From assembly GCA_038049695.1 (NCBI GenBank), contig CP142452.1, positions 109,756,001-109,820,000 on the forward strand: a stretch of DNA of 64,000 nucleotides, read 5' to 3'. Position numbers and translations under genes: made by a program. This document shows, piece by piece, positions 5,574 to 46,911 of this stretch. The DNA is from Cinnamomum chago. Taxonomy: Eukaryota; Streptophyta; Magnoliopsida; Laurales; Lauraceae. Position 1 is the stretch's first letter, and the number at the start of each line of letters is the position of its first letter. Below the pieces are notes generated by a model. That model saw nothing but the letters and a program-made list of their open reading frames with translations, did no database searches and was not told the origin of the DNA.

Positions 5574-8500
5574 ATGGCATCTCTGTCACATAACCCGTCG
5601 AAGAAGGCGATTCGAAGCCCAGGTAATGGTGGGGGAGCACAGAGCAGCAGCAAAAATGGAGGCGGCCAGAATGTTAAATTTGCGAGGAAGACTTCAAGCG
5701 GCCGCTACCTAAGCTTGTCAAAGGATGACATGGACATGTCCGGTGAGATGACAGGCGACTCCACGAACTACACAGTGCAGATTCCTTTAACACCAGACAA
5801 TCAGCCCATGGATGGATCATCAGTGGCTGTGAAGGCTGAAGAACAGTATGTATCTAATTCTCTATTCACGGGAGGATTCAACAGCGCAACTAGGGCCCAC
5901 CTCATGGACAAGGTGATCGAGTCTGAGGTGAACCACCCCCAGATGGCAGGATCCAAGGGCTCATCATGTTCAATGCCTGCTTGTGATGGCAAGGTGATGA
6001 GGGATGAGAGAGGAAATGATGTGGACCCATGCCACTGCAGGTACCCCTTTTTTTGCTCTGTTTTTGAACTGTAACATGTACCATGGACCCATTGAGAGAG
6101 GGAGCTGCTTGTGGCTTTAATTGTTGTATAGAGAACAAAAATAATAAACGAAACAAATCACTCCTTACATCAGAATCTTTTCTAAGTAAACTGATTATTA
6201 TCATTTTAAACTGATCGGCGGTGGATACGAACACAATTTTTCTAAGTAAACTAACTAGTCACAACAAAAATTAAGTTCTATTAGGTGTCTGCCCCAACAA
6301 AAAGACAAGTGAGATATGCTTGACTTCTTCTAGCCCAACAAGATCATTTGTGATAAAGAGGTGGTCATGTCTATGTATATAGGTTTAAGATCTGCAGAGA
6401 CTGCTACGTTGATGCAAGAAAAGATGCAGGCCTATGCCCAGGATGCAAGGAGCCATACAAGCTAGGAGAGTACGAAGAAGAAGTACCAGATTTCTCCTCC
6501 GGAGCATTGCCGCTGTCGACTCCAGGTGGTGGAACCAACTTGGCAGACCGTGGGATGTCTCTGATGAAGAGGAATCAGCCGGGCGATTTTGATCATAACA
6601 AGTTTTCGTATGAGACCAAGGGGACTTATGGTGCTGGTAATGCCTACAAACCCAACGATGACAACTATCGAGATGATGGTGATGGGTTTGGAGATGCCAC
6701 GAATGAAAACGCGGAGAATGAATGGAAACCTCTCACTAGAAGAATTCAAGTCCCAGCATCCATACTCAGCCCTTACAGGTATCATCATCAACTTAACTCA
6801 ATTTGATCAAATTTATTATTAGATACAACTAATTCATCATATAAGCGATTCCATTTCCATGGTTGGAAGAATCCAAACTCTACTACTACTACTACTACTA
6901 CTTGACCTGACCCCAAATAACATTTTGTTATAATTTTGATTTTGGACATAGGTGCTTGATTTTCATTCGGTTAGTAGTGTTGGGCTTCTTCTTAACATGG
7001 CGAATTCAACATCCAAATGAGGACGCCATATGGCTATGGGCAATGTCCATTGTTTGTGAGATATGGTTTGCCTTCTCATGGATCCTAGATCAGTTCCCCA
7101 AGTTCTGCCCCATCAGCCGGGCCACCGATCTCGAAGTCCTTAGGGAGAAATTCGACATGCCATCGCCATCCAATCCAACAGGCAGATCCGACCTTCCAGG
7201 CATGGATGTGTTCGTATCCACCGCTGATCCAGAGAAAGAACCCCCACTCGTCACCGCCAACACCATCTTGTCCATCCTAGCTGCCGATTACCCTGTTGAG
7301 AAGCTCGCATGCTACATATCAGACGATGGTGGGGCCCTCCTAACATTCGAGGCCATGGCTGAAGCCTGCAGCTTCGCTGATTTGTGGGTCCCATTTTGTC
7401 GAAAGCACGACATCGAGCCGAGGAATCCTGACAGCTACTTCAGCATCAAGGGGGACCCCACCAAGCACAAAAGTAGGACGGATTTTGTCAAGGACAGGAG
7501 AAGGATCAAGAGGGAGTACGATGAGTTCAAGGTGAGGGTCAACAGTCTCCCTGACTCAATTAGGAGGAGATCAGGCGCGTTCAATGCAAGGGAGGAGATG
7601 AAGAAGTTGAAGCAAATGAGGGAGAGTGGTGTGGACATGCTGTTAGAGCCACTCAAGGTACAGAAGGCCACTTACCCGATGTCCTTTATCTTTAGTTTGT
7701 TGTTTGTTCTTCCTGCTTGTATTTTTTTTTTTCCCTTCTTAATAAAATTTCTATTACCATTCAAAAAAAAAAAAGGTACAAAAGGCCACATGGATGGCCG
7801 ATGGGACCCATTGGCCCGGGACATGGAGTCAGCCGGCAGCTGACCACAAGAAAGGCGACCATCCAGGGATCCTCCAGGTGATGCTCAAGCCACCAAGCAG
7901 TGAGCCACTCATGGGGTGCGCCGAGGATAGAATCATCGACTGCACCGATGTGGACATCCGGCTACCTATGTTCGTGTACATGTCGCGAGAGAAGCGGGCC
8001 GGGTACGACCACAACAAGAAGGCTGGGGCCATGAACGCTCTGGTGCGCTGCTCAGCGGTCCTGTCCAATGGACCTTTTATCCTCAACCTCGACTGCGACC
8101 ACTACATATACAATTGCCAGGCCATGAGAGAAGGGATTTGTTTTATGATGGATAAAGGAGGGGAAGATATCTGCTATATCCAGTTCCCTCAAAGGTTTGA
8201 AGGCATAGACCCGTCTGATCGGTATGCCAACCATAACACTGTCTTCTTCGACGGCAACATGCGAGCACTTGATGGGTTGCAGGGTCCGGTGTATGTGGGG
8301 ACTGGGTGCATGTTTAGGCGGTTCGCGCTGTATGGGTTCGACCCACCTACGGCCAAGGAGTATACAGGGTTCTATGGGGGAAAGGTGGTGGAGAACACCC
8401 CACATGTAGACCCAGAGGCGCAGGCATTGGGACCAGATGAGTTTGATAACGACTTGAATCCAGCTGTGTTGCCTAAAAGGTTTGGTAACTCCACTGCGCT

Positions 8501-9620
8501 GGCTGAGTCTATACCTGTGGCTGAGTACCAAGGCCGGCCTCTTGCCGACCATCCTAGCATCAAGCATGGACGACCGCCAGGAGCGCTGAGGGTTCCACGG
8601 GAGCCGCTCAACCCGTCTATTGTTGCGGAGGCCATCTCTGTCATCTCGTGCTGGTACGAGGACAAGACTGAGTGGGGCGACCGTGTAGGGTGGATCTATG
8701 GGTCGGTGACGGAGGATGTGGTGACGGGTTACCGCATGCACAACCGTGGGTGGCATTCCGTCTACTGCCTCACCAAGAGGGACGCTTTCCGTGGCTCAGC
8801 TCCCATCAACCTCACTGACCGCCTCCACCAGGTGCTGCGTTGGGCCACCGGCTCCGTCGAGATCTTCTTCTCCCGCAACAATGCTGTCCTTGCCTCCTCC
8901 AGGATGAATCTTCTTCAGCGGCTCGCCTACCTCAACGTTGGAATTTACCCCTTCACATCACCATTCCTGCTCCTCTACTGCTTTCTTCCTGCACTCTCCC
9001 TCTTCTCCGGACAATTCATTGTCCAGACCTTGAACGTTACCTTCCTCCTCTACCTGCTGACCATCACTCTTACGCTCATCTTCCTCGCCTTGCTCGAGCT
9101 CAAGTGGTCAGGTATTGGGCTAGAGGAGTGGTGGAGAAATGAGCAGTTCTGGCTCATCTCTGGAACCAGTGCTCATTTGGCAGCTGTGATGCAGGGGCTG
9201 CTTAAAGTGATTGCAGGAATTGAGATATCTTTCACTTTGACGTCCAAGTCAGCGGGGGAGGACAATGAGGACATGTATGCGGAGCTTTATCTGGTGAAGT
9301 GGACATCTCTGATGATACCCCCTCTTACGATCATGATGGTGAACTTGATAGCTCTTGCTGTGGGGATTGCGAGGACCATCTATAGTCAGTTCCCTAAGTG
9401 GGGTAAGCTCGTGGGGGGCGCTTTCTTTAGCTTCTGGGTGTTGGCTCACCTCTATCCTTTTGCAAAGGGGCTCATGGGAAGAAGAGGAAAGACCCCTACC
9501 ATTGTTTTGGTGTGGTCAGGTCTCACGGCAATCACAATCTCACTTCTTTATATTGCCATCAACCCACCAAAGGAGACTGCCAATCCCAAAGCTGCAGGCA
9601 CCGGTTTTCAGTTTCCATGA
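5574..9620 (+). CDS. CSLD: Cellulose synthase-like D protein (GT2 family)
   Basis: Membrane-bound processive glycosyltransferase of family GT2, making beta-glucan or mannan-type wall polysaccharide during tip growth (family knowledge). Exons read as 5574-6040, 6383-6778, 6952-7657 and 7776-9620, joining in frame to about 1,137 residues, the usual CSLD length. Visible parts: N-terminal TPDNQPMD motif, RING-like cysteine cluster (about residues 132-180) split by intron 1, two N-terminal membrane segments (290-337), DDGG (D412/D413), DCD (D629/D631), TED (D837) and QVLRW (Q875-W879), then a multi-helix C-terminal membrane region. Start chosen because [11 protein letters not shown] matches CSLD N-termini. 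Several positions recall the CSLD1/CSLD4 pollen-tube branch, but that placement is from memory. Odd: between 7658 and 7775 the frame holds only if a 118-bp insert is removed. Otherwise translation stops at 7841-7843, after the DDGG motif but before DCD, TED and QxxRW. Confidence 0.93.
7655..7789 (+). mobile_element. LINE/retroposon-like 3' end insert inside CSLD, apparently acting as an intron
   Basis: The 17-mer AAGGTACARAAGGCCAC occurs at 7,655-7,671 and again at 7,773-7,789 with one difference (G/A), as expected of a target-site duplication. Between the copies lies T-rich sequence ending CTTCTTAATAAAATTTC, then CTATTACCATTC and a run of 12 A, which looks like the 3' end of a plant non-LTR retrotransposon or a retroposed transcript. 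The first copy supplies AAG|GT and the second supplies AAG|GT, so a GT...AG intron of 118 bp (7,658-7,775) can be cut out exactly, restoring the codons for [12 protein letters not shown]. Weak points: the donor GTACAG lacks G at +5, and the acceptor follows a run of A rather than pyrimidines. Confidence 0.8.
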
Positions 9621-25373: not shown

Positions 25374-25438
25374 AGTATGTCGAGGACCCAATGAATTGAT
25401 ATCACATGTGGTAAGAAAGGAGGGATATGATCCCTTTC

Positions 25439-26369
25439 AGCGGTATGATCCCTTTCTCTTATGTAAATGAGCTCCCACATCTCACTTCTCTCAATTTAGA
25501 AAATAATTCACTTGAAGGCTCTATTCCGCAATCCCTGTTTTCACACCCATCATTACAAGAGTTGTCTCTCTCTTATAACCAACTCAATGGTTGCCTTCCC
25601 GAATTTTATAATGCATCTTCTTTAGTGTTGGAAGCCATCTTCTTGTATAATAACAAATTACGTGGGCCAATTCCTAAGTCAATCTTTGAACTCACAGAAC
25701 TAACATCTCTTGATCTTTTTAAAAACTACTTTACTGGCACTATAGGATTACATATGTTTCAAAACATGAAGAACCTTTGGTATCTTGATCTCCCATATAA
25801 TAACTTGTCATTCATTAATGGCAATTATAGTTCTCATCACATCTCATCATCTCATATTTCTTATTTGGGACTGCGTTCATGCAACATTACTGATTTCCCA
25901 GACATCCTCCAAAATCTTAATTATTTAAGCCATCTAGATCTGTCAAACAACAGAATCCAAGGAGAAATACCCAACTGGATATGGAAGGTGGGAAATAGGA
26001 CTCTAAGGACCCTGATTCTTTCTAATAATTTCTTAGAAAGTTTTGGGCATCCATTGCCTTAATTTCCATCACTTAGTTACTTACAAATTGTTGACCTTCA
26101 TTCCAACAGATTACGGGGCTCACTTCCGATCTTTCCACATCAAGTCTATTTCCAAGACTATTCAAAAAATCATTTCTCATCAGTCATTCCAGCTACCATA
26201 TATAAATTTTACTTTCGGTCAGTTCCTTTTCCTTTCACATAATAATGTCGGCGGAGACATCCTTCATCAATTTGTGACGCAAGCTCTCCTAAAATCCTTG
26301 ATCTGTCTTATAACAAATTCAGTGGTTATCTTCCAACTTGTCTAGGTGAAAGCAGTAATCTTGAGATAT
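25439..26369 (+). pseudogene. Inverted middle fragment of the same receptor-like LRR gene
   Basis: The plus strand encodes leucine-rich repeats (LPHLTSLNLENNSLEGSIP, FELTELTSLDLFKNYFTG) matching the minus-strand copy at 26,698-27,625 almost throughout. The frame runs to 26,062, where a glutamine codon of the other copy is TAA here. The matching sequence then continues out of frame to 26,369. At the left a 13-base word (TATGATCCCTTTC) is duplicated at the junction. There is no start, signal peptide or C-terminus, so this is a broken fragment. Confidence 0.85.
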
Positions 26370-27625
26370 TCAGTGGTAAAAGAGTTGGAAGAAATGTCAA
26401 AGATCTGGAGAAATGGGAACAATGGACTCGTAGTATGGGACTCAACAATGGGACCATGAAATGTGTTGGACCGCAAGATCAAAATACGCAAATTGGATAA
26501 ATTCTCCTACCAAAATGGGAAGGTATCATTTAGACGATTGTTTCCAAGGTCTAAAACCTCCAATGTTTCGCAATTTGCTAATGATTTTGGTATTGGCCCT
26601 TCTAATTGGTTACCGTTAAGATTGAGTGTTTTCATACTACAATCTTTTTCGAACATGTCAGGCACATTTCCTTGTAAAATATTTCCATGCAAATTCAATA
26701 TCTCAAGATTACTACTTTCACCTAGACAAGTTGGAAGAAAGCCACTGAATTTGTTATAAGACAGATCAAGGATTTTAGGAGAGCTTGCGTCACAAATTGA
26801 TGAAGGGATTTCTCCGCCGACATCATTATGTGAAAGGAAAAAGAACTGACCGAAAGTAAAATTTATGGTAGCTGGAATGACTGATGAGAAATGATTTTTT
26901 GAATAGTCTTGGAAATAGACTTGATGTGGAAAGACCGGAAGTGAGCCCCGTAATTTGTTGGAATGAAGGTCAACAATTTGTAAGTAACTAAGTGATGGAA
27001 ATTGAGGCAATGGATGCTCAAAACTTTCTAAGAAATTGTTAGAAAGAATCAGGGTCCTTAGAGTCCTATTTCCCACCTTCCATATCTAGTTGGGTATTTC
27101 TCCTTGGATTCTGTTGTTTGACAGATCTAGATGGCTTAAAATAATTAAGATTTTGGAGGATGTATGGGAATTCACTAATGTTGCATGAACGCAGTCCCAA
27201 ATAAGAAATATGAGATATGAGATGGGATGAGAACTATAATTGCCATTAATGAATGACAAGTTATTATATGAGAGATCAAGATACCAAAGGTTCTTCATGT
27301 TTTGAAACATATGTAATCCTATAGTGCCAATAAAGTAGTTTTTAAAAAGATCAAGAGATGTTAGTTCTGTGAGTTCAAAGATTGACTTAGGAATTGGCCC
27401 ACGTAATTTGTTATTATACAAGAAGATGGCTTCCAACACTAAAGAAGATGCATTATAAAATTTGGGAAGGCAACCATTGAGTTGGTTATAAGAGAGAGAC
27501 AACTCTTGTAATGATGGGTGTGAAAACAGAGATTGCAGAATAGAGCCTTCAAGTGAATTATTTTCTAAATTGAGAGAAGTGAGATGTGGGAGCTCATTTA
27601 CATAAGAGAAAGGGATCATACCGCT
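25439..27625. repeat. Long inverted repeat, arms about 930 bp, spacer 328 bp
   Basis: The left arm 25,439-26,369 and right arm 26,698-27,625 are reverse complements with few differences, both derived from the RLP gene. The spacer (26,370-26,697) contains unrelated sequence and part of the RLP. A transcript crossing it from either side would fold into a long, nearly perfect hairpin. Confidence 0.85.
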
Positions 27626-28826
27626 AAAATAGTTAGATGAAAGAATTAAAATCTCAAGTTGGGAAATGTTTGCAATTGAAGAAGGTAATGAACCAGAAAG
27701 ATTGCAATTACTAAGCGATAATTCCTTCAAGAACTTGAGATTACCAATGGAATCCATTAGTTTCTCATTGACTCTTGTCTCGTCCATGGACAAGTATTGC
27801 AAAGCACTGCCTCGAGGAAACTCCGGTAAATGAATGATGAGATTTGGATTGTATGAAACGTCAAGCATTTGTAGGTGTGGCAAAAAGAAAATGTTGCTAG
27901 GAAATTTTTCAAACAAACCACAATCATTGAGAGAGAGATGTCAAAGTAGAGGAATTACCCAAGAAATTGGGCACAACAATTGAAGGATCGTTTCCATCCA
28001 GTGAGATTTGAGATAGTAAAGGAAGCTGGAAAAGAGAGGGATCAATGGGTCCTCCAAGACCACAATAACACAAGCTCAATTTTTGGAGATTAGGAAGTGC
28101 AATGGATAAGGCTTGGGCCCATTTTCCACCATGCTCTGAGATAGTAACTTGGTCAAGAGACAATTGTCTAAGGTTGGATAAGTTTTGGATGAGTCTCGTG
28201 AGGCTTGGGTTTCTAAGTTCAAGATAATAATTAGATAGATCCAAGGAAATGAGCTTGGTCAAGTTTGATATCTCCAACGGGATTTGGCCAAAAAAATATG
28301 AGTGAGAAAGGTCCAAATGGGTCAAATTGGTGAGGAGGCCGAATCCAGAGGGTATTGGGTTGGGATAGAAGTAATTCAAACTAAGGTTGAGTTTCTGCAG
28401 GCTACGAAGTTGGAAGAGGCTGGAGTCTATTCGACCTTCAATCCCACTACTGCTCGAGTCCAATGGCCAATTGCTGCTGAGATCGAGTCCAATCACATGA
28501 CCCATGGCCTCATCACAAGTGATGCCTTCCTAAGAGCAACAATCAGCATCCGGATTCCAAGAATCGAGCCTTGAAGAAGCATTATCATACTCACCACGAT
28601 CTATGAAGAACTCATGCTTGAGTTGAAACAAGGCCAATTTCTTGTGATGAAGGCACGTTGACGAGGAACCATTATTGTTGACAGCAAAGGCAGTTTGAGA
28701 GAGCAAAAGCAGTTGCAATGAAAAGGCAAGAAGAGAGAGCATCAAACAACACCATGAGGTTTTTGTGAAAGGGAGGAAGTGGCGATCTATTTCCATATGT
28801 AGAGCTCTCAGATTGATAGGTTTCAA
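26507..28826 (-). pseudogene. Receptor-like LRR protein (RLP) pseudogene, most complete copy
   Basis: Read from 28,826 leftwards: a hydrophobic signal peptide (LLAFSLQLLLLSQ), an LRRNT cap with CLHHKKLALFQLKHEF and a DCCS motif, and many extracellular leucine-rich repeats of the L..L..LxLSxNxLxGxIP type. Breaks visible: TAG at 28,530-28,532 where copy 1 has TGG (Trp), a frame change in a CT-repeat near 27,925-27,935, TAG at 27,086-27,088 where the inverted copy has TGG, and a stop at 26,507-26,509 just after NDTFPFW. The remaining LRRs, membrane segment and short tail expected in RLPs are missing. The promoter region is shared with copy 1. Confidence 0.88.
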
Positions 28827-34623: not shown

Positions 34624-35246
34624 TGATTGAGGACCAAGGAGCCAATGGTGAGATTCCTTGACAACTTCACACTGCTGATGAAAATAAGTCCTTAGAAGCC
34701 AAACATTGAAACCTCTGGCAGATGAGCTTTCTTTTATAAATACTGTTCCGTGAAAAAGAGTAGAAAGGAGAAAAGATTTTCTATATTACATCTGTTTCTT
34801 TTTTATAATTTTTGACAATAATATGGTGTGTCCAGAATTTCATGATATAATGTGATGGCCTGTCCTTGAAATTTTAGATGCCATAATTCTAAAGTTCCAG
34901 CTACAAAAAAAGGTCTCAAATAATCATTGGTTGGATTTTTGGATGCTGGAGTTCAGAAATTCAGAAATCCCAAAAATAGGAAGCTTGTCCTTGACATTTT
35001 CAGACGCTAGAATTATAAAGTTCCAACTAAAAAAAAAGGTCTCAAATGATGCTGGAGTTTGGAAATTTAGAAATCCCTAAAATAGGAATGCCCTAAATTT
35101 TAATATGAGATACTTTGCGATCATCTTCAAAATTGTCTAATAAGGATATCACTCTCCATCTAGTATATTTTGCCAACTAAGCCTAAGAATGTCCTTTCCA
35201 GTGTAGCGGGTCACAAAAATATGACCAGTCTAGGGTGTCAAACGGG
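34624..35246. other. Intergenic DNA with an imperfect direct repeat
   Basis: A stretch around 34,861-34,920 (containing AAAGTTCCAGCTAC and AAAGGTCTCAAAT) recurs at about 34,984-35,050 with substitutions. No gene is recognised. Confidence 0.45.
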
Positions 35247-44126: not shown

Positions 44127-44266
44127 CTCACTCATTTCGAACTCAACCAAGAACCCTACTTTTTCTCCCACCACAACAAGCTCCAAAACCCTTTTCTTCG
44201 TCGACCACAACAAGCACCATTGCAGATTGATCCATCTCCCCTCCCTCTTCTAGTGGTTGGAGAGCC
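44127..44266. repeat. Segmental duplication, copy B, middle part before the Copia insertion
   Basis: Matches 22,217-22,353 (CAACAAGCTCCAAAACCC and CTAGTGGTTGGAGAGCC). It is cut by the Copia element exactly after GAGAGCC and resumes at about 49,588. Confidence 0.85.
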
Positions 44267-44328
44267 TGAAAAAACAATAATCTAGATCTGGAAAAACTTT
44301 GATCAATCAAGATCCTCCATGTCAAATC
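44267..44328 (-). repeat. Truncated 3' LTR of the Copia element
   Basis: The 62 bases resemble 49,137-49,198 (AATCTAGATCTGGAAAAAC), after which the sequence switches directly to the reverse transcriptase frame. Confidence 0.85.
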
Positions 44329-45219
44329 CGGACGCGTATACACCATAGCATACATTAGACTCCCTACAGCTGATGCATAAGGAATCTTCTGCATTTCCTT
44401 AACTTCAAGGTTAGTTTTAGGGCATTGATTGAAACTGAACTTGTCCCCCTTAGAGACAGGGGTGTCACCTGGTTTGCTGTCCTGTATGCCAAACCTTTTG
44501 AGCATTTTATCAATATAGCTTCTTTGTGATAATCCAAGAATACCCCAAGAGCGATTTCGTTGTATCAGGATCCCTAATACAAAAGAGGCGTCACCAAGAT
44601 CTTTCATCTCAAAATTCTTTGATAGAAATCTCTTGGTTTCATGCAACATGCCTATATCATTTGTGGCAAGCAATATGTCATCGACATATAAAACCAGAAA
44701 TATGTGCTTACTCCCACTGAATTTGTGATACACACAATTATCAACAGCGTTTGTCTCAAAACCAAACGAGATGATCACTTGATGAAACTTGTGATACCAC
44801 TGACGAGAAGCTTGCTTCAGTCCATAGATGGACTTTGTCAATTTACAGACCATATTCTTTGGGTCTCCCGACTCAAAGTTTTCTGGCCGCACCATATAAA
44901 TTGTTTCGTCAATGTCACCATTAAGAAATGTTGTTTTGACATCTATTTGACGAAGCTCAAGATCAAAATGTGTAACTAGTGCCATGATTGTCCTAAAAGA
45001 GTCTTTCGATGAAACCGGAGAGAAAGTCTCTTTAAAGTCAATCCCTTTCTTTTGGGTAAAGCCTTTAGCTACAAGACGAGCCTTATACTTTTTCACATTA
45101 CCATTTGACTCCCTTTTGGTTTTAAAAATCCGTTTGCAACCAATGGGCTTCGCACCTTCTGGTAATGGGACAAGTTCCCAAACCTTATTGTCTTGCATAG
45201 ACTTATATTCCTCATTCAT
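44329..45219 (-). pseudogene. Copia reverse transcriptase fragment
   Basis: The frame starts at an internal methionine and shows reverse transcriptase motifs: KARLVAKGFTQ, QIDVKTTFLNGD, SIYGLKQASRQW and the catalytic YVDD. It ends at GSLMYAMVYTRPDLT, the point where RNase H should follow, and runs on into LTR and host DNA to 44,143. It is part of a broken polyprotein. Confidence 0.9.
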
Positions 45220-45555
45220 GGCATCAATCTACTTTTGAGAGTTAGAACTTTGCATGGCTTGATGGAAGTTGATTGGATCATTTTCCACCATTCCAATTTC
45301 TTCCTCATGTTCTTGGAGAAATGCAAAAAAATCGTCCGGAATAGCATGTCTCCTCTCTCTAGTGGATCGCCTTAATGGCACTGATGCTTGAGGTTGTTGA
45401 GTTTGTTCCTCATCTTGAATGGGGGTTGATCAACATTGTCTTGTTGAGGATCCGGATTCGCTTCTTGATCAATGACAGGTATAGAAACCTGCACATTGTC
45501 AAAAGCAATAGTGAGAATCGTAACCAATTCTTTCTCAAAGACAATGTCTCTAACC

Positions 45556-46839
45556 TTATTTCTCCCCCCCAAACTCAACATCCTCAAAAAATGTTGCAGT
45601 TCCCGTCTCAAAAATTGACCAAAGTGTGGGATCGTAAAACTTATAGCCCCTAGATCGCTCAGAGTAGCCAATGAAGTAGCTGCTCACAGTTTTGGAGTCC
45701 AATTTCTTTTCATGTGGCTTGTAAGGCCTTGCCTCAGCTGGACATCCCCAAATGTGAAAATGTTTTAGACTAGGTTTTTTGCCTGTCCAAAGCTCATAAG
45801 GTGTTTTTGCAGCTGCTTTAGTTGACACTCTATTCAGAATATAAGTTGCTGTTTTGAGTGCTTCTCCCCAGAGTGACTCTGGTAGAGTGGAATGACTAAT
45901 CATACTCCTTACCATATCCTTAAGAGTCCAGTTTTGCCTTTCAAATACACCATTCATGCTAAGTGACCTTGGCATGGTGTACTGTGGGATGATTCCACAT
46001 TCCTCTAGGAATTTAGCAAACGGTCATGGACGTTGTTCACCTGAACCGTCATATCTACCGTAGTATTCACCACACGGTCAGACCTGACACTCTTTATTCT
46101 TTCGTTGAGTTGGTTCTCAACTTCAGCTTTAAATGTTTTAAACACGTTCAAAGACTGTGATTTTTCATGAATGAGAAATAGGTATCCATAGCGAGAGTAA
46201 TCGTCTATGAATGATATGAAATACTGTTGGCCATTCCAGGAAGCCATAGGGAATGGTCCACAGATATCTGTGTATCAATTCTAAGACGTCTGTAGTTCTA
46301 TTGGCACCTAATTTCTTCATTTTGGTCTGTTTTCCCTTGATGCAAGCAATACAAACATCAAAATCTATAAAGTCAAGGGAATCTAAAATGCCATCAGACA
46401 CAAGTCGCTCAACTCTAGACTTAGAGATGTGACCTAAGCGTTTGTGCCATAATGTAGCCGAGTTTTCTTTATTCAGTTTGCGTTTAGTACCTCGTGATTC
46501 CACATACAATGATTCATTATAAGAAACAATTGTATCAAGCAAATATAAGTTGTCATATACACATAGAGAACCAGTTCCAACAGCATTTGAATTTATAGAT
46601 AAACTGAATTGATTGTTTCCAAATGAACAAAAATAGCCAAACTTGTCCAATAAAGAAACTAAAACCAAATTCCGTCGAAAAGACAGTACAATAAAAGTAT
46701 CTAATAAACCCAAATAATAACCAGTTTTTAATAACAACCTAAAATGCTCTATTGCCTCTACTTCTACCGACTTTCCATCGCCCACAAAGATGTGTCTTTC
46801 AGCATCACTTGACTTTCGGTAGCTCAGGCAACCTTGCAT
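45556..46839 (-). pseudogene. Copia GAG-pre-integrase and integrase region, broken
   Basis: Pieces at 46,839-46,165, 46,247-46,005 and 45,975-45,556 carry the LWHKRLGHIS motif with CIACIKGKQ (zinc-binding part), FISFIDDYSRYGYLFLI of the integrase core, and [16 protein letters not shown] followed by [15 protein letters not shown]. Frame changes between pieces and damage at the usual TDICGP motif show it is inactive. Confidence 0.85.
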
Positions 46840-46911
46840 AGAAACACTGATGTGAGTAGTAGCACCAGAATCTAACCACCACGTGTTTCTAGGTACTGAA
46901 GCTACATTTAC

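Follow-up and report, generated by a model that had tools for sequence, protein, structure and literature searches.

A LINE-derived insertion between target-site duplications as a probable new intron of a plant CSLD gene

A CSLD gene in the 64-kb stretch of DNA analysed here (the window) is interrupted in its third coding exon by what homology identifies as the 3′ end of a LINE, and this insertion probably acts as a spliced intron, the predicted removal of which would restore the CSLD protein. In the model that we propose, a LINE, which we take to be of the L1 type, would have placed its 5′-truncated 3′ end, 101 bp with the A-tail, in sense orientation into the exon by target-primed reverse transcription at CTC/AAGG, as the anatomy of the site suggests. 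The duplicated target held AAG|GT, and its upstream copy would have become the 5′ splice site, the A-tail and the downstream copy would together provide the 3′ splice site, and the branch region would lie in the U-rich tail of the LINE, which contains TTAAT. The spliceosome would then remove 118 nt, the mRNA would again code for the ancestral CSLD, and the insertion would be tolerated because it is removed from the RNA. We expect the RNA to be mostly spliced with some leakage, in that some transcripts may use an AG located 9 nt further on or end at the poly(A) signal of the LINE.

Removal of the insertion restores the CSLD reading frame

The gene lies on the forward strand at 5574-9620 and is predicted to encode a protein of 1137 aa whose homologues are named CSLD4; genes of the CSLD4 type are pollen-tube genes. 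Its coding exons (5574-6040, 6383-6778, 6952-7657 and 7776-9620) join into an intact frame, and the two host introns, located at 6041-6382 (aa 156) and 6779-6951 (aa 288), are both GT-AG. The protein is 97% identical to P0001 of Persea americana, with all other matches among the 120 best listed at 82% identity or below. Judged from this one protein, the plant is probably a member of the Lauraceae close to avocado. When the protein database was searched with the junction region, P0001 came first at 99% and the next match reached 84%, with no separate record of the plant's own gene among the best 120 of 1025. The spliced-frame protein contains the motifs DDGG (412), DCD (629), TED (835) and QxxRW (875), and the Pfam domains Cellulose_synt and zf-RING_4 are present on P0001, the protein scanned for this purpose. 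Together, the four motifs in the window protein and the RING-like finger recognised via P0001 identify the predicted gene product as a CSLD.

Between the third and fourth coding exons lies the candidate new intron, a GT-AG stretch of 118 bp in phase 0 (7658-7775, forward strand). The first-pass annotation had described a poly(A)-tailed insert between 17-bp direct repeats at this place, and this description proved accurate: a 101-bp insert (7672-7772, forward strand) is flanked by an upstream repeat copy, AAGGTACAGAAGGCCAC (7655-7671), and a downstream copy, AAGGTACAAAAGGCCAC (7773-7789), which lie 118 bp apart and agree at 16 of 17 positions. It had also held that the duplication supplies both GT and AG and that loss of 118 bp would bring the protein back. 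The donor AAG|GTACAG indeed lies in the upstream copy and the acceptor AG (7774-7775) in the downstream copy, and removal of the candidate intron restores the ancestral reading frame exactly, giving a single open frame of 1137 aa with all motifs intact, a phase-0 junction at K523/V524 and, at this junction, the residues of P0001. If the 118 bp were kept in the mRNA, the frame would shift and run into a stop after 584 aa, beyond DDGG and ahead of DCD, again as the annotation had said. Directly before the acceptor G lies an A-tract (7763-7774) composed of 10 A of the tail and 2 A of the duplication, and further upstream the insert contains a branch-point-like TTAAT (7739-7743) and the AATAAA of the LINE (7741-7746), a possible premature poly(A) signal, all on the forward strand. 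This AATAAA, the weakness of the acceptor and a second in-frame AG at 7783-7784, within the downstream copy, had escaped the first-pass annotation.

The whole window was scanned for repeat pairs with at least 16 of 17 identical bases at a spacing of 60-400, with simple sequence dropped. The scan yielded 25 pairs, two of which have an A-run at the second copy. The pair at 7655/7773 is the only tail-and-repeat pair of such make-up in the window, and a chance repeat is ruled out. The other pair with an A-run (34901) falls, by eye, within a longer imperfect tandem repeat; this repeat (34887-35075, ~126 bp, with A-runs) mimics a tailed insertion and by eye is not one.

The insert is a LINE 3′ end at a previously uninterrupted site

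A search of the 1.06-Gb assembly with positions 7640-7800 returned the insert's own site and seven relatives with 76-90% identity over 40-94 query bases. The best-scoring relative, the C10 copy, is 84% identical over 89 bp, and when longer stretches around the relatives were considered, the insert was matched in 7/7 copies. The first 11 insert bases are without a match in the two best copies, C10 and C2. These two copies stay alike, by eye, upstream of the 5′ end of the insert, and the insert is considered 5′-truncated because they resemble each other beyond this end. In the relative L015, the homologous tail is located just 3′ of open stretches that match zf-RVT (1.7e-18), RVT_3 (1.1e-9) and RVT_1 (6.1e-5; at 23.3 bits this last score is under the cutoff of 29.6). 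This homology marks the insert as the terminal 3′ part of a LINE that has an RNase H-like domain, with L015 as a decayed copy. The LINE hallmarks poly(A) tail, 5′ truncation and target-site duplication were all found at the insert. Tail and duplication are named as hallmarks of dicot L1-like elements in PMC4838847, and the nick target CTC/AAGG bears only a partial likeness to the TT/AAAA motif given there. An exact-word search for target-site duplications at the seven other LINE copies revealed nothing clear.

Comparison of the insertion site with the gene's six full-length CSLD paralogues in this genome showed an unbroken protein match across K523/V524 in every one. The site motif was seen directly in five of them; L050 had no match to the searched motif, yet its protein match spans the site. 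Paralogue introns were resolved at aa 156, 288, 384, 558, 599 and 816, and none at 523 (for L051, a low-scoring call close to aa 92 was disregarded, and for L048 the intron at 288 is the only one resolved). The intron at aa 288 is found at the same place in 6/6 full-length paralogues and the one at aa 156 was resolved in L046 only. Over aa 522-527, length is the same in 118 of 119 aligned homologues, an alignment that leaves out P0002, and the remaining one has a single extra residue. The Persea protein P0001 reads LKVQKATW at the site without an insert, which would fit both a gene that lacks the insert and one that splices it out. Since all six paralogues are uninterrupted and 118 of the 119 homologues are of unchanged length, these comparisons indicate that the interruption is new to this gene.

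Two further introns of the paralogues were looked at in this context. In L051, a 909-bp intron at aa 384 (L051:2991-3899) has the donor GAAAAG|GT and the acceptor GAAAAG|GA, hence a 7-base repeat at both ends. It is possibly an older insertion-made intron, and as an example of one it is unconvincing, with only the GAAAAGG match at its ends. An 817-bp intron at aa 599 of L046 (L046:4798-5614) is absent from the other five full-length paralogues; an origin by insertion is unconvincing here as well, as the intron is without a direct repeat of at least 12 bases.

Splice signals of the candidate intron

Splice sites were scored using plant frequencies, with a reference set of 17 introns from CSLD genes of this genome, of which the present gene contributes two. 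The candidate donor reached 5.9, level with the introns that rank sixth and seventh from the bottom of the 17 (range 3.9-10.3; the donor of host intron 1 scores 4.4), and the acceptor AAAAG|G reached 2.9, which ties with the weakest of the set, that of the aa 384 intron of L051, itself an inferred intron. Because many exonic decoys score equally well (14/167 GT and 83/237 AG), these scores decide little. Better arguments for predicted splicing are the U-richness of the candidate intron, the placement of TTAAT and the absence of AG. T makes up 44% of the candidate intron, as against 32-36% of the host introns and 23-24% of the exons on either side; the last A of TTAAT is located 33 nt before the intron end; and there is no AG between 7694 and 7774, so that the acceptor is the first AG after TTAAT. 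The AG at 7783-7784 lies 9 nt downstream of the acceptor in the same A-tract context, and its use would yield a protein of 1134 aa without VQK. In the predicted RNA fold, the U-tract pairs with the A-tract and the acceptor, and the fold of the repeat-insert-repeat unit is not unusual (z -0.52; 58 of 200 shuffles fold as well). Of note, the exonic sequence AAG|GTGAGG at 7529-7537 contains a cryptic donor (7531/7532) that scores 7.3, above the candidate donor, and that would, with the acceptor before 7776, give an in-frame product of 1095 aa.

Age of the insertion and alternative explanations

The first-pass annotation had called the insertion fairly young, and this part of its reading could not be upheld: a single difference in 17 bases carries a huge error, and the best relative found in the genome is 84% identical. 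Retroposition, a duplication that supplies GT and AG, exact restoration of the frame and the newness of the site were borne out. Within one mismatch, a 20-base stretch taken from the insert had no second occurrence in the genome; with up to two mismatches allowed, the pattern occurred at 43 places (25 forward, 18 reverse) versus 37 for a reversed control, a number that is not a family count. If the insertion were very recent, a near-identical source copy would be expected; that none turned up, together with the 84% identity of the best relative, speaks against such an age, with the reservation that the assembly may lack the source. Compared with Persea, the part of the protein encoded downstream of the insert has 14 differing residues, of which five are window-derived, eight Persea-derived and one a tie, a balance that fits the spliced-intron explanation, and upstream we counted 10 window-derived and eight Persea-derived amino-acid changes; the derived side was assigned by a crude polarisation according to the majority of homologues.

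A 691-bp duplicate of exon 4 is located on another chromosome, apart from the rest of the gene (L052:2847-3537 on C5, matching window 8841-9531). It is 98.55% identical to the window, and eight of the 10 differences are synonymous (binomial 0.0003 versus the neutral share; pS 0.048, pN 0.0038), which is odd for a dead fragment. By paralogue comparison, about five differences appear to have arisen on the L052 side (one of them nonsynonymous) and two on the window side (one synonymous, one M1023I), with three undecided. The comparison shows selection in the common past of the two copies, and gives no clear sign of it in this gene after the insert arrived.

The insertion might be a recent disruptive allele: the mRNA would retain the insert, translation would stop after 584 aa, and this gene copy would be broken or heterozygous in the sequenced plant. 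The frame shift and stop that would follow from retention and the weak acceptor fit this view, as does the fact that one assembly, and hence one allele, was examined, and we nevertheless regard it as unlikely. Exon 4 contains no stop codons, and if it had been untranslated since the insertion, its 5-6 window-side changes would limit neutral drift to about 0.0074-0.0083 per site; within this limit, the chance of the one repeat mismatch is about 0.22-0.25, mild evidence against a recent broken allele. The failure to find a near-identical source, with the reservation about the assembly made above, points the same way, and so does the read-through tail, which had no match in the protein database (nine candidates, none with E≤10; a weak test). 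As the insert carries the LINE's own AATAAA, premature 3′-end formation is a serious competitor of splicing or may accompany it. Splicing could be inefficient and part of the transcripts could end at this signal, a mixed fate that overlaps with the spliced-intron explanation and that we consider possible but not probable. The AATAAA at 7741 is preceded by a U/UG-rich stretch, the old cleavage point lies at 7762/7763, the acceptor is weak, and with the insert retained the frame runs open through the A-tail, so that transcripts ending there would be nonstop mRNAs; were this the case, the insert would dampen CSLD output. However, the tail of a LINE may work poorly as a signal once removed from its own context, and a usable donor would counter premature ends, given that U1 snRNP guards Arabidopsis mRNAs against premature ends inside introns (PMC11489095).

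Much less needs to be said for two other explanations. That the interruption is an assembly or sequencing artefact is very improbable: a single assembly was examined, but with a clean duplication, a tail and homology to LINEs, a biological insertion is much more probable. We attach equally little probability to an ancient intron at K523/V524 that other genes have lost and into which a LINE inserted afterwards. Losses do outnumber gains in grasses, with 652 single intron losses versus 118 single gains (PMC4256211); against this, the repeats span the splice points and rebuild an uninterrupted exon, and an ancient intron is disfavoured by the six full-length paralogues, none of which (0/6) has one there.

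Relation to known transposon-made introns

The predicted CSLD intron is probably a transposon-made intron of a known kind, in a case that is unusually legible for a plant. Doc elements are LINEs, and Ds is a DNA transposon and in this differs from the LINE tail in CSLD; Ds introns in maize were reportedly described by Wessler (1987) and Giroux (1994), and the rice catalase case is said to involve a SINE. In Drosophila sechellia, intron 3 of GM26034 was made by the retrotransposon Doc1053, according to PMC3296678. As proposed for CSLD, a retrotransposon copy with a target-site duplication became an intron there, but the second duplication lies 15 nt past the intron end, whereas in CSLD both splice points are inside the duplication copies and coding is restored exactly. 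The same source cites earlier transposon-made introns from maize, rice and Oikopleura, and the maize Ds cases appear among the references of PMC4256211; the maize and rice introns resemble the one proposed for CSLD in that a plant transposon in a gene is removed by splicing. An exonic ONSEN insertion in Arabidopsis was intronized, a retrotransposon spliced out of a plant exon as proposed for CSLD, but a full-length LTR element after an induced burst, for which the authors suggest splice sites within the LTRs (PMC12112155). In some Introner families, the duplication or the adjacent exon contributes all or part of both splice sites, as proposed for CSLD, yet Introners are families of at least four similar introns, whereas CSLD is one case from a LINE; the survey detected no Introners in land plants and regards DNA transposition as the likelier origin of most (PMC9860276).

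Fixed plant intron gains have rarely been traced to transposable elements; according to a 2014 grass study, none of those proposed had been linked to such an element (PMC4256211), though maize and rice cases are cited in PMC3296678. No paper describing the CSLD insertion was found among the best-ranked literature matches. The CSLD case differs from these in that the 3′ end of a LINE lies in a plant gene and both candidate splice points fall within the duplication copies. All of its elements, from donor and acceptor to duplication, tail and LINE kinship, are readable, which makes the duplication model of intron gain directly testable.

One might go further and regard L1-type LINEs as a recurrent, built-in source of plant introns, an idea that we consider improbable. 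It would suppose that the LINE endonuclease has a preference for A-rich sequence, in which AAG|G can occur, and that U-rich LINE 3′ ends carry a branch-like TTAAT/AATAAA stretch with few AG. The A-tail would run into AAG|G, and a short sense insertion at AAG|GT would be a ready intron; other introns of this genome with A-tract acceptors, such as that at aa 384 of L051, could then be older products of this route.

Elsewhere in the window, open stretches of a Copia-like retrotransposon (RVT_2, gag_pre-integrs) were found at 44143-46911 on the reverse strand, and leucine-rich-repeat stretches on both strands at 25415-28529.
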